A stretch of DNA of 64,000 nt, taken from positions 673,341 through 737,340 of the forward strand of contig NZ_WTUY01000004.1 of the NCBI RefSeq assembly GCF_009882945.1, in the 5' to 3' direction. The stretch comes from Alcanivorax sp. DP30 (GTDB taxonomy: Bacteria > Pseudomonadota > Gammaproteobacteria > Pseudomonadales > Alcanivoracaceae). Shown one piece after another: positions 19,409 through 57,044 of this stretch. Every line of letters begins with the position of its first letter. Positions within the stretch are counted from its first letter, which is position 1. Under the pieces are notes generated by a model that was not told the DNA's origin, ran no database searches, and saw only the letters and a program-made list of their open reading frames with translations. The position numbers and the translations under genes are program-made.

Positions 19409-19566
19409 AGCTGCAAGCCACAAGCTTCAAGCTACAACGCAGCTCAATACCTGATTGTACGGAAAGGGACTCCCCGCGCAGCGAACATGGGAGCGCGGGC
19501 ACGGCGTAAAATAAACCCCTGCCCTTATCCGTGTTGTAGCTTGAAGCTTGCTGCTTGTAGCTGCTC
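19409..19566. repeat. Paired inverted repeat, CTACAACGC family (copy 1)
   Basis: Left arm at 19409-19440 contains GCAAGCCACAAGCTTCAAGC and CTACAACGC. Right arm at 19531-19566 carries GTTGTAGCTTGAAGCTTGC and is its approximate reverse complement. The ACAACGC ends point inward. The right arm touches the coaD stop codon and the left arm lies in the ggt leader. Four more pairs of this family occur at 28595-28737, 31064-31176, 37794-38137 and 56875-57044. Confidence 0.85.
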
Positions 19567-19567
19567 T

Positions 19568-20059
19568 TTATTTCTGCCGCGCCTTGCGTTTTTCTTCCAG
19601 CGCCTCGGCCACCAGCGGCGGGACGAAGTTGCTGACGTTGCCGTCCAGCAGGGCGATTTCGCGGATCAGGGAGCTGGAGATGAAGGACAGGTGTTCTGCC
19701 GGGGTCAGGAATACGGTTTCCAGATCCGGGGCCAGTTGGCGGTTCATGTTGGCCAGCTGGAATTCGTATTCGAAGTCACTCACGGCGCGCAGGCCACGCA
19801 GCAGGATGTTGCCCTCTTCTTCCTGACAGAAGTGTGCCAGCAGTTTGGAAAAGCCTTTCACCTTCACGTTGGGAAGGTGGGACAGCACTTGCACGGTGAG
19901 GTCCACGCGCTCGTCCAGGGTAAACAGCGGGCCCTTCTTTTCGCTGGCGGCAATGCCGACCACCACTTCGTCGAACATCTTGGCGGCCCGCTCCACCAGG
20001 TCCAGGTGGCCGTTGGTGATGGGGTCGAAGGTGCCGGGGTAGATTACGCGGTTGGTCAT
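19568..20059 (-). CDS. coaD: Phosphopantetheine adenylyltransferase
   Basis: CoaD adds AMP to 4'-phosphopantetheine to give dephospho-CoA, the fourth step of coenzyme A synthesis. The 163-aa length is normal. The nucleotidyltransferase motif [19 protein letters not shown] carries the TxGH-type His18. [21 protein letters not shown] and the ISSSLIRE motif near the C terminus complete the signature. The ATG at 20059 gives the standard family N terminus, and the upstream in-frame start at 20116 is rejected. A strong hairpin lies 31 bases ahead of it. The gene precedes ggt on the same strand, across a dispersed inverted repeat, so co-transcription is unlikely. Confidence 0.96.
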
Positions 20060-20089
20060 GCTTGCCTTGCCTCTGTCGCGGTAAACACT

Positions 20090-20113
20090 GTGCCCGGGCT
20101 CTGGCCCGGGCAC
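20090..20113 (-). terminator. Strong hairpin between SDR gene and coaD
   Basis: GTGCCCGGG (20090-20098) and CCCGGGCAC (20105-20113) pair perfectly around a six-base loop. A second stem, CAGGGGCC/GGCCCCTG (20154-20179), overlaps the stop codon of the SDR gene. Neither has a T-tract, so they may be RNA-stability or attenuation hairpins rather than true terminators. Confidence 0.5.
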
Positions 20114-20167
20114 CACATTGCCCGCAAGGATACCCCAAGCGCACCCTGTCGTGCAGGGGCCGGGGGA

Positions 20168-21262
20168 TTACGGCCCCTGTAAAGGGCTTGCTGCGGCGTC
20201 TCCGCCGGGAACCTGTTGCTGCTGGTAGAAGCGGGTGCTGGCGGCAATCACCTGTCCGATGGGCGGGTGGGCCAGCCCCTCCTGCGCCATAAAAGCGTCA
20301 CTGGCGCGGGTATCGAAACGGGTAGTCTGGATGAAGTGCAGCGCCTCCGGCCAGGTGTTCATCAACCGTGGCAGACCGGGTATCCGCAGCAGGGCCGCCA
20401 GAATCGGCATGGGCAGAAAACGGCGGGGCGGCTTGCGTCCCAGCGCTGTGGCGGCCTCGCCCAGCAATCCCTTGAGTGAAGGGGTGGCCGGGTCCAGGGC
20501 CAGCAAGGTGGCGGGGACCTGGTCGGCGGTAGCCGCCCGGGCGATCAGCCGGGCCAGCAGATCCACGGCCACCAGCGGCAGCCAGTGCTCCGGGGTGCCA
20601 GGAATGGCCGCCATGCGCCCACGGGCCAGATTGTCGATCAGTTGATACAGAGGTTGCTGTTGGTCCAGTTGCCCATTGCCACTATCGCCGGCCACGGTGG
20701 CCGGTTGCACTTCCACCAGTGCCAGCGATTGGGTCCGGGCGTAGTGGCGAACACGGATAGCAGCTTCCAGCTTGCTGGCTTCATAGCCGCCGGCATGACG
20801 GTATACGTTTTGCCAGTCGGTCTGTTCCGGGTCATCCAGATGAATGCCAAGACGGGCAAGGTGGGCCAGATTTTCCAGCATGAAGCCACTGATGAAGACC
20901 AGCCGGGCCTGTTGCTGGTGTGCCAGTTGTGCCACGGCCAGGGCACCATCCACGTTGGTGCGACGAGCGGATGCCATGGGCAGTTGCCAGGCAAAGCGTG
21001 CGCCAAGATGAATGACGGCAGCAAGCGCGGGCAAGGGCTCGCTCAGGCCAAGGTCGGGCTGATCCAGATCCCCGGCCACGGCCTGTAGCAGACTGCCCTC
21101 GCCGCCCAGGGAGTCCACCGCCGCGCGCAGGGCGGGCAGTTGCTGTTGTGGTTGGCGCAGCATGGCGAGCACGGGGCGCCGGGCACGGGTCAGCTGTGCG
21201 CATACCTGGCGGCCGATAAAGCCGCTGGCTCCGGTAATCAGGATGGGGTTGTGGTGGTCCAT
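20168..21262 (-). CDS. NAD-dependent epimerase/dehydratase-type SDR
   Basis: This 364-aa protein is an extended short-chain dehydrogenase. The nucleotide-binding motif ITGASGFIGRQV lies at residues 9-20. Later come VIHLGARFAW, a serine-containing strand VFISGFMLENL, and the catalytic YxxxK in GGYEASKLEAAIR. The C-terminal half binds substrate, with PGTPEHWLPLVAVDLLARLI typical of NAD(P)-dependent sugar or steroid epimerases. The substrate is unknown. The ATG at 21262 lies 99 bases from the divergent merR-type gene, and the MerR-like operator sits inside its promoter, so the regulator probably controls this gene. Confidence 0.87.
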   Translation of the reverse strand: MDHHNPILITGASGFIGRQVCAQLTRARRPVLAMLRQPQQQLPALRAAVDSLGGEGSLLQAVAGDLDQPDLGLSEPLPALAAVIHLGARFAWQLPMASARRTNVDGALAVAQLAHQQQARLVFISGFMLENLAHLARLGIHLDDPEQTDWQNVYRHAGGYEASKLEAAIRVRHYARTQSLALVEVQPATVAGDSGNGQLDQQQPLYQLIDNLARGRMAAIPGTPEHWLPLVAVDLLARLIARAATADQVPATLLALDPATPSLKGLLGEAATALGRKPPRRFLPMPILAALLRIPGLPRLMNTWPEALHFIQTTRFDTRASDAFMAQEGLAHPPIGQVIAASTRFYQQQQVPGGDAAASPLQGP

Positions 21263-55681: not shown

Positions 55682-55690
55682 CCGCCTTAC

Positions 55691-55811
55691 CGTAGGAGCC
55701 TGCCTGCAGGCGAAAGGCGTTGGGAAGCGAGTAACCAGTTTCGAGTAGCGAAAACCTTCAGGCCTTGCCGTATCGGGGGTTGGCCTTTCGAAACTCGCTT
55801 CTTGTTACTCG
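55691..55811. repeat. REP fragment and TTTCGAGTTGCGAA-type inverted pair
   Basis: A REP-like arm GTAGGAGCCTGCCTGCAGGC lies at 55692-55711. It is followed by the pair at 55725-55756 and 55782-55811 (AAGCGAGTAACCAGTTTCGA against TCGAAACTCGCTTCTTGTTA). The pair ends about 80 bases before the tonB start and could include its promoter or block read-through from gshB. Confidence 0.78.
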
Positions 55812-55893
55812 GTACTTTCTTTTCGCTTGCAGGCAACCTGGTAAGAGCCCAAAGAGCTCAAAACACAAAAAGCAGTAACCAAAAGAAGAATTC

Positions 55894-56769
55894 ATGGCAG
55901 CCAATTCCACCGTCAGCGCCTCCGACCGCCTCACCTTCACCGTGTTTCTGGCGTTGGCCTTCCACGGCATCCTCATCTTCGGGGTCAATTTCGCCCCCGA
56001 AAAGCAGCGCGCGGCGCCCCACACCCTGGAAGTGACCCTGTCCCAGTTCCGCAGCGACGACGCGCCGGAAGAAGCGGATTTCATCGCCCAGAGCAACCAG
56101 CAGGGCTCCGGGGATCTGGCGGAAAAGCAGGAACTGACTACCACCGAGCAGGCGGATTTTGCCGACAGCAAACTGGAGAATGTCCAGCTCAAGGAAAAAA
56201 CCACTCGCCAGCCGCGTGACCAGCAGTCACAGCTGCTGGTGATCACCACGGCTCGCGAGAGCGAGCAAAAGGTGCAGGCGGAACAAAAGGAAAAGGCCGA
56301 GCAGAAGCCGCTAAAAGTTGCTGAGCAGGAAAACCTGCTGGACATGAGCCAGCAGATCGCCAGCCTGCAGGCACGTCTGGCCGAGCAGAAGCAGGCCTAT
56401 GCCAAGCGCCCGCGAATCCGCCGGCTTACTTCGGTATCGGCCAAGGCCCACTACGAAGCCCAGTATATCGACAGCTTCCGCCGTGAAGTGGAAGCCATGG
56501 GCACCCGCAACTTCCCCGCCCAGGCCCTGAACAGCAACACCTTCGGTGCAGTACGCTTGATGGTGGCAATCCAGAAGGATGGCAGCCTCAAGGAAGTCCG
56601 TGTTCTACAGAGCTCTGGTCACAAGTTCCTCGACCAGGCCGCCATCCAGAGCGTCCGCCTCGCCGCCCCCTTCGATACCTTCAGTGCTGAAATGCGCCAG
56701 AACATGGATGTCCTGGAAATCATCCGCACCTGGAAGTTCGACAGTAGCCGCAAGGTGTCGTCGAAATAA
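55894..56769 (+). CDS. Energy transducer TonB
   Basis: The 291-aa protein has a short N-terminal anchor (TFTVFLALAFHGILIFGVNF, residues about 12-31) and a long hydrophilic, coiled-coil-like region rich in Glu, Gln and Lys (about 85-165). The TonB C-terminal domain (about 185-280) contains FRREVEAMGTRNFPAQAL, GAVRLMVAIQKDGSLKEVRVLQSSG and FLDQAAIQSVRLAAPFDTF. It lacks the Pro-rich spacer of classic TonB. The P. aeruginosa protein in this position (TonB3, PA0406) is needed for normal twitching and pilus assembly. The neighbouring Pil-Chp genes support a similar role here. No ExbB or ExbD gene is nearby. Confidence 0.88.
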   Translation: MAANSTVSASDRLTFTVFLALAFHGILIFGVNFAPEKQRAAPHTLEVTLSQFRSDDAPEEADFIAQSNQQGSGDLAEKQELTTTEQADFADSKLENVQLKEKTTRQPRDQQSQLLVITTARESEQKVQAEQKEKAEQKPLKVAEQENLLDMSQQIASLQARLAEQKQAYAKRPRIRRLTSVSAKAHYEAQYIDSFRREVEAMGTRNFPAQALNSNTFGAVRLMVAIQKDGSLKEVRVLQSSGHKFLDQAAIQSVRLAAPFDTFSAEMRQNMDVLEIIRTWKFDSSRKVSSK

Positions 56770-56813
56770 CGCGGCAAGCTTCACGTAACACGCACACGCC
56801 AGATCGAAGTCGC

Positions 56814-57044
56814 TGTAGGAGTTCCCTTCCAGGGGACGAATTCGAGCCTTGGCGAGAAAATGGCGTAATGACAGCCGCAAGCTTCAAGCTGCAACGCGGG
56901 GTGAGGCTCGGCGCTGACTGAGCGCTGGGTGTTCCGCGCTGATCTGTTGAGGAAAACCACAAGAGATTACGGCGCGGCTCATACGCCAGAAGAGTGGCTA
57001 CGGATTGCTCCTCGCGTTGCAGCTTGTAGCTTGAAGCTTGCAGC
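56814..57044. repeat. REP arm and CTACAACGC-family inverted pair (copy 5)
   Basis: A diverged REP arm (GTAGGAGTTCCCTTCCAGG) starts near 56815. The inverted pair follows: left arm 56875-56900 (GCAAGCTTCAAGCTGCAACG) and right arm 57013-57044 (CGTTGCAGCTTGTAGCTTGA), with TGCAACGC instead of TACAACGC at the inner end. The right arm stops 28 bases before the yqgE start. Confidence 0.82.

Follow-up and report, generated by a model that had tools for sequence, protein, structure and literature searches.

Small palindromic elements with heptamer arms and a fixed inner ruler form a genus-wide family in Alcanivorax

Introduction

What are the inverted repeat pairs that recur between genes of Alcanivorax sp. 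DP30, and did they arise where they stand or were they brought there? The question is raised by a stretch of 64,000 nucleotides (nt) from this genome (assembly GCF_009882945.1, contig NZ_WTUY01000004.1, positions 673,341 to 737,340), hereafter the window, in which an original prediction had pointed to five such pairs. Their coordinates proved correct when the positions were re-read; all copies are intergenic and the CAACGC ends point inward in facing arms. The pairs, termed F1 elements, belong to a family of small palindromic DNA elements that is found across the genus. With a probability of roughly 0.6, we suggest that F1 and its sister family F2 are non-autonomous, palindromic, mobile-type elements of the Alcanivoracaceae, similar in behaviour to miniature inverted-repeat transposable elements (MITEs) and to REPINs, which are built from repetitive extragenic palindromic (REP) sequences. 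Genomes and fetched loci are given by codes beginning with G and L, respectively.

Results and Discussion

A family of heptamer-armed palindromes

Within the window, CAAGCTACAACGC occurs 10 times with at most 2 mismatches, against a shuffle mean of 1.30 and a largest value of 5 in 100 shuffles. The 13-mer arm core CAAGCTDCAACGC has 69 exact copies in the DP30 genome (3.62 Mb, 24 contigs) compared with 2 for the reversed pattern, and a scan for heptamer arrays returned 32 arrays versus 6 in the reversed control. Chance origin of the repeats is thus excluded by shuffle, reversed-pattern and array-scan controls. The arm core is present in 17/17 Alcanivorax genomes, at 2 to 100 copies each; a stricter 21-mer was found in 15 of these 17 and in 2/29 other genomes of the Alcanivoracaceae.

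The arms had been described as units of 25-36 bases. Paired arms are indeed present, and they are really arrays of a 7-nt unit, (N)CAAGCT, usually in 2-5 copies (1 to 8 were seen), terminating in (N)CAACGC, CAACAC or CAAGGC. A typical F1 element has a heptamer array, GCG, a ruler of ~34 nt and CCGCG, this half-unit being repeated in inverted orientation around a free loop of 7-216 nt. Element A (19406..19566; this and all later element coordinates are without strand), in the ggt-coaD gap 3′ of coaD, has its left arm at 19406-19440, CCGCG at 19474-19478, CGCGG at 19494-19498 and its right arm at 19531-19562. The design was measured on the 134 elements, some of them orthologous, that the fetched loci contain. 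In 79 of these, 84-100 nt separate the two arms, and over 268 half-sites there are 225 matches to CCGCG at 31-38 nt from the arm core. Where both motifs are in place (101 elements), the distance from arm core to CCGCG averages 33.6 nt (standard deviation (sd) 1.5) and left and right ruler lengths are uncorrelated (r 0.13). The centres, which had been said to differ in length and sequence, do vary in length and in the loop, and have in common the CCGCG at a fixed distance from the arm.

Elements with long centres carry their additional DNA in the loop. Both motifs are at the canonical distance in 30/43, one is in 13/43 and neither in 0/43, whereas both are kept in only 0.6% of shuffled centres; these 43 elements include orthologues and represent ~22 loci by eye. 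Two independent half-sites with a rigid ruler and a free loop would be easier to reconcile with a protein that recognises two bipartite ends than with a single folded RNA.

F1 is not the only family of heptamer-array design. Its sister units are F2, (N)AAAGTT; F1b, (N)CAAGTT; and F3, (N)CGAGTT. Core and ruler are common to F1 and F2, with CCGCG of F2 elements in the register of F1. The number of F2 arrays per genome ranges from 1 (G004) to 424 (G012) and that of F3 arrays from 0 to 160, totals in which overlapping arrays are counted more than once, and the dominant family differs between species. F2 pairs were found in 8/390 genomes of the order and in 2/142 genera, both of them in the Alcanivoracaceae. 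F3 heptamer elements lie inside REPINs in several places. Single loci add to this variety: one element (G003:C4:129644) has hybrid arms in which (N)AAAGTT and (N)CAAGTT heptamers are mixed; L253-L255, from the genus coded g2, have F2-type arms of up to seven heptamers, one end being GAAAGGGCGG; and a further heptamer palindrome, (GTCNGAC)n, is present in SAT93 (L208:14405-14487) with none in A. profundi.

Orthologous slots are empty, filled or swapped

The slots in which the elements lie may, at orthologous sites, be empty, filled, or filled by another heptamer family. The ggt-coaD slot holds F1 in DP30, G007 and G014 and F2 in G012 and G008; the F1 and F2 borders are within a few bases of each other and the flanks are preserved. 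Element D (37793..38138; arms 37794-37821 and 38114-38137) is a long-loop copy in the slyD-nfeD gap, in whose loop an F3 heptamer element, (N)CGAGTT (37869..37959), is nested, followed by half a REP. This slot contains F2 in G007, G012 and G008, F1 in G004, G016 and G010, and no element seen in G002. At the tonB-algH gap, where DP30 has element E (56873..57047; arms 56875-56897 and 57014-57047), there is F2 in G012, F3 in G007, F1 in G014 and G016, and none in G001. Element B (28594..28739; arms 28596-28618 and 28710-28737) takes up all the DNA between the stop codons of two convergent genes, tetR and an alpha/beta-hydrolase gene. Among genomes with a readable gap, F1 is found here in DP30 only; elsewhere the gap holds a REPIN with F3 (G007 and G014), a REPIN (G012) or just 42 nt (G001). 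Lastly, element C (31062..31180; arms 31064-31088 and 31149-31180), between DUF1294 and AAA genes, is a shortened copy with the inner motif missing from its right half. Judged by eye, G014 has the same truncated form, and other heptamer-like arms are present in G004, G012 and G007.

Slot reuse is also found when the search starts from F2. Among 28 distinct F2 loci, fetched by their F2 arms regardless of F1, 9 have an orthologous stretch among the fetched F1 loci, and for 7 of these 9, which amount to six slots because two coincide, at least one genome has an F1 arm in the slot; counted by locus pair, the F1 arm is present in 10/15. In a 64-kb comparison of eight genomes, 3/4 F2 slots are also F1 slots of DP30, which make up 5/57 junctions. 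Moreover, the alignment of SAT93 with A. profundi, in which block identity is a mosaic of 77-99%, has 17 breaks, 14 of which were inspected. Seven of the 14 have F1 in SAT93; their A. profundi counterparts hold F2 in two cases, REP-like sequence in two, and in the other three 3 nt, 52 nt or 39 unrelated nt. Two further F1 copies of SAT93 in these stretches are common to A. profundi, one collinear and one inverted. The original prediction had held that copies conserved at every orthologous gap would be ordinary regulatory hairpins. Many copies are vertically conserved, but some gaps are empty or have had the whole element apparently replaced, so conservation does not extend to every orthologous gap.

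The middles of the elements bear on how such differences arise. Of 140 orthologous element pairs, 68 have centres that can be aligned at 40 bits; of these, 59 are collinear and 9 were scored as inverted, some of the latter being ties or near-ties. A clean inversion of the middle between unchanged flanks is seen at four loci (tonB-algH, L155/L162, L052/L146/L181 and L040/L208), where one orientation scores 81-179 bits and the opposite one 0. In the slot of element E, the middle is inverted in SAT93 relative to A. profundi and S6407. No centre of an F1/F2 orthologous pair reached 40 bits (up to 36 bits were seen), and therefore the F1/F2 swaps look like replacement of the whole element, an in-place change of arms being unsupported, although one G004/G016 slot, taken up below, seems to keep its core under changed heptamers. 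A similar flip is suggested by eye in the tetR-hydrolase gap (L088 versus L086): the REPIN and F3 unit of G007 seems to have its inside in the opposite orientation to that of G014, much as in the F1 inversions.

Weighing a mobile origin

The elements are short and non-coding, with terminal inverted repeats, many copies, and presence or absence at orthologous sites, as expected of MITEs; as in REPINs, two inverted half-sites form one hairpin. A transposable unit moved in trans, one of the readings first proposed, is favoured by the presence/absence and the whole-element replacement. Under such a reading, an enzyme encoded elsewhere would recognise the bipartite half-sites and put copies into 3′-end slots, perhaps with a preference for sites that already have a hairpin or for hairpin loops; later, replication template switching between the arms might flip the middle and homogenise the arms.

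A number of observations weigh against this. Most alignable orthologues are collinear and old (59/68), and in 5/15 of the F2/F1 locus pairs the slot is without an F1 arm. Inspection of the break points by eye, with flanks that had diverged, revealed no target duplication. Presence/absence could partly be loss or recombination, because the genomes compared are not strain-level pairs and SAT93 and A. profundi have a block identity of 77-99%. Copies in different slots are not near-identical: the best identity is 86% among 15 F2 elements of G012, and the within-genome F1 pairs shown have ~77%. This low identity argues against very recent jumping, and because of it no recent jump was caught. Moreover, no mover was linked to the elements. 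A RAYT (REP-associated tyrosine transposase) is recognised by domain PF01797, and 59 of the 60 PF01797 matches were examined, some stretches being cut by contig ends. None of these 59 RAYT-like domains has an inverted F1/F2 pair within 700 nt, and no transposase sharing F1/F2 ends was found among the 59 loci, other transposase classes not having been searched.

Placement after stop codons and the fold

The copies had been said often to touch a stop or start codon; more exactly, an element mostly begins ~2 nt past a stop codon, the outer arm end lying a median of 2 nt beyond it. In DP30, 34/40 stop-side ends fall between -8 and 12 nt, where crude uniform placement would give 18.8 (sd 2.0); in the named contigs 65/84 do so, against 41.1 (sd 2.7) expected. 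Genes for this test, for gene context and for the 64-kb comparison were predicted by a simple codon-usage caller rather than taken from annotation. The test sets hold 37/38 elements of DP30 and 79/85 in the named contigs, with 11/134 elements in neither set; those close to the end of a locus, not flanked by genes on both sides, or in gaps >1000 nt were dropped. DP30 elements lie in 31 tandem, 5 convergent and 2 divergent contexts. For a candidate A-rich terminal motif on the stop side, a stop triplet occurs in the preceding 12 nt for only 43/77 anchored ends, where composition predicts 0.50; the anchoring is loose and the count carries little weight.

Such enrichment over uniform placement would be expected of functional hairpins in the 3′ untranslated region, selected in place for protection of mRNA 3′ ends, as an RNase III site or for attenuation, in which sequence turns over fast and the fold is kept. 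The fold is also consistent with this. Six elements are predicted to form a long hairpin with an apical stem (-67 to -84 kcal/mol), and bases 4-7 outside CCGCG covary between the halves: Watson-Crick pairing is 0.454 versus 0.344 (sd 0.026) in 71 elements, orthologues included, with 0/1000 shuffles as high, and 0.490 versus 0.348 (sd 0.045) in DP30 alone, where the best of 1000 shuffles is equal. In addition, several slots retain some hairpin although the family changes. However, under a slightly different anchoring this apical covariation is confined to canonical elements (z 4.1) and is not seen in long-loop ones (z 0.4); the 34-nt spacers show no covariation across the element, and there is no T-tract. 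Presence/absence and empty slots between related species, together with dispersed sequence families that an in-place origin would not lead one to expect, also count against selection in place, and we regard it as a rather unlikely explanation of the elements, with about one chance in five. The elements might nevertheless have a cellular role at mRNA 3′ ends. A hairpin within each half, pairing CGCG with CGCG, is unsupported in canonical copies (z 0.6) and weak in long ones (z 3.1, 6/2000 shuffles, orthologues retained).

Relation to REP transposases

Could the elements be decayed or unusual REPINs, or terminal inverted repeats (TIRs), moved by a RAYT or TIRYT-type HUH transposase of the genus? 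The two-fold inverted architecture resembles that of REPINs as outlined in PMC3116915. PF01797 matches occur in 16/17 genus genomes, and copy number correlates moderately with PF01797 counts (rho 0.49 for F1, 0.53 for F2 and 0.59 for F3; n=17, ignoring relatedness). In G005 two REPINs with F3 inside flank a RAYT-like gene, and at three orthologous loci (L069, L078 and L082) the RAYT domain has an F1-type element roughly 0.8-0.95 kb away. Loose two-heptamer matches fall within 700 nt of 8/59 RAYT-like domains, two of them F3 by eye. On the other hand, no GTAG-tagged (GTRG) palindromic REP is found at F1/F2 ends, which are heptamer arrays, and a GTAGGAG-type motif lies within 600 nt in 39/59 RAYT-like loci, set against the zero for inverted F1/F2 pairs. 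G001 has no PF01797 match, yet seven F1 arm cores. Apart from the three loci with an F1-type element at ~0.8-0.95 kb, neither ends nor RAYT linkage identify F1/F2 as REPINs, and we find it doubtful that RAYT or TIRYT-type enzymes moved them.

Ordinary REP systems are nevertheless at hand. The window has a RAYT-like gene at 10935-11747 (PF01797 match 10995-11303) with GTAGGAGCACCTCTCGAGGTGCGAA-type repeats at 10778-10889 and 11375-11470, which looks like a conventional REPtron. At L075:1195-2040, a RAYT-like gene has similar REPIN-type units on either side (stretches 86-94% identical) with an F3 heptamer element inside. Elsewhere in the window, positions 42995-50086 hold an open reading frame of 2363 amino acids with five 81-nt direct repeats, perhaps repeated domains.

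Template switching and hairpin-directed replacement

The inverted middles at the four loci also agree in part with the recombination module of the original prediction, and template switching could equally explain them. Template switching between short inverted repeats has been reported to give both arm homogenisation and spacer inversion (PMC8604942); therefore, no recombinase need be invoked. A rival reading is an enzyme-free origin, in which palindromes and arrays grow and flip by replication slippage and template switching, and ectopic gene conversion from hairpin to hairpin spreads them. Along with the inverted middles, two features of the arms are in keeping with it. At one slot of G004 and G016, the heptamers have changed in concert from CAAG to CTAG with the core apparently kept (by eye), and the variable position of the heptamer agrees between arms in 54/116 cases, against 37% expected; at ~2 sd, the latter falls short of strong covariation. 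However, slippage alone leaves unexplained why dispersed copies by the dozen share a single ruler length and why amplification is family-specific, and F1/F2 swaps have no centre alignable at the 40-bit threshold. We consider it improbable that slippage and conversion account for the families.

More speculatively, the hairpin behind the stop codon may itself be a docking site, where an incoming element with bipartite ends, from one heptamer family, enters the resident hairpin at its tip and takes its place. Slots would then outlast species, and occupants, cores and the heptamer 'alphabet' would be exchanged by the putative enzyme. We give this variant as a long shot, and note it for what it would entail. 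If it were true, bacterial 3′ ends would carry long-lived slots in which small hairpin occupants turn over and the neighbour genes stay. There would be a comparative system for studying what directs small palindromic elements to stop codons, what moves them when no transposase is linked, and whether the target is the hairpin as such. In a search for the binding protein, the heptamer arms and the rigid 34-nt ruler offer concrete handles.

Two further candidates fall quickly. The terminator module that had been proposed fails for a standard intrinsic terminator, since at least 5 T in the first 8 nt of the tail were found in 0/30 cases in DP30 and 1/54 in the named contigs. Integron attC sites have the core GTTRRRY, a consensus that the facing end GTTGNAG violates (by eye). 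Rfam 15 gave 0 matches at gathering score in the window and in 9 loci with F1/F2 copies.

Comparison with known systems

Short length and inverted repeats are also traits of bacterial MITEs, among them CREE (the Correia element) and ERIC/IRU. F1/F2 differ from these in that families are swapped in one slot and the element starts ~2 nt past a stop codon; in addition, no target duplication was seen by eye at the diverged sites inspected, and no parent insertion sequence was found among the 59 RAYT-like loci. The likeness to CREE lies in short inverted repeats and in location, which for CREE is reported as mostly conserved with some presence/absence between close genomes (PMC2649163).

Other repeats share single traits with F1/F2. 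TIR/TIRtron units, as presented in PMC3733652, are inverted repeats without GTAG, often dimeric and moderately abundant; those TIRs flank tyrosine transposase genes, unlike the F1/F2 pairs (0/59 loci within 700 nt). The R0/R1/R2/R6 repeats of P. fluorescens (PMC2718517) have two inverted repeats around a variable core and strain-specific abundance, a likeness by description and not base by base; that account, in the portions consulted, speaks of neither heptamer arms nor a ruler. The TAACTGA repeats of Beggiatoaceae (PMC4679880) are likewise intergenic heptamer arrays, although described as direct repeats mostly upstream of starts, whereas F1/F2 are inverted pairs after stops. In the open-licence PMC literature, surveyed mostly by title and abstract, no published description of F1/F2 elements was recognised, and papers containing an arm string were, among the matches listed, unrelated by title.

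In appearance and position, REPINs come closest to F1/F2, yet F1/F2 show neither their GTAG-tagged REP ends nor the RAYT linkage: the ends are heptamer arrays with a bipartite 34-nt ruler, no cognate RAYT was found adjoining, and GTAGGAG-type repeats coexist with F1 in the window (11375-11470 and others). F1/F2 share several traits with REPINs as these are characterised in PMC3733652: short intergenic inverted doublets that form hairpins in many copies, mostly downstream of genes, and lineage-specific families with no gene of their own, in which the spacer varies and the hairpin is kept.

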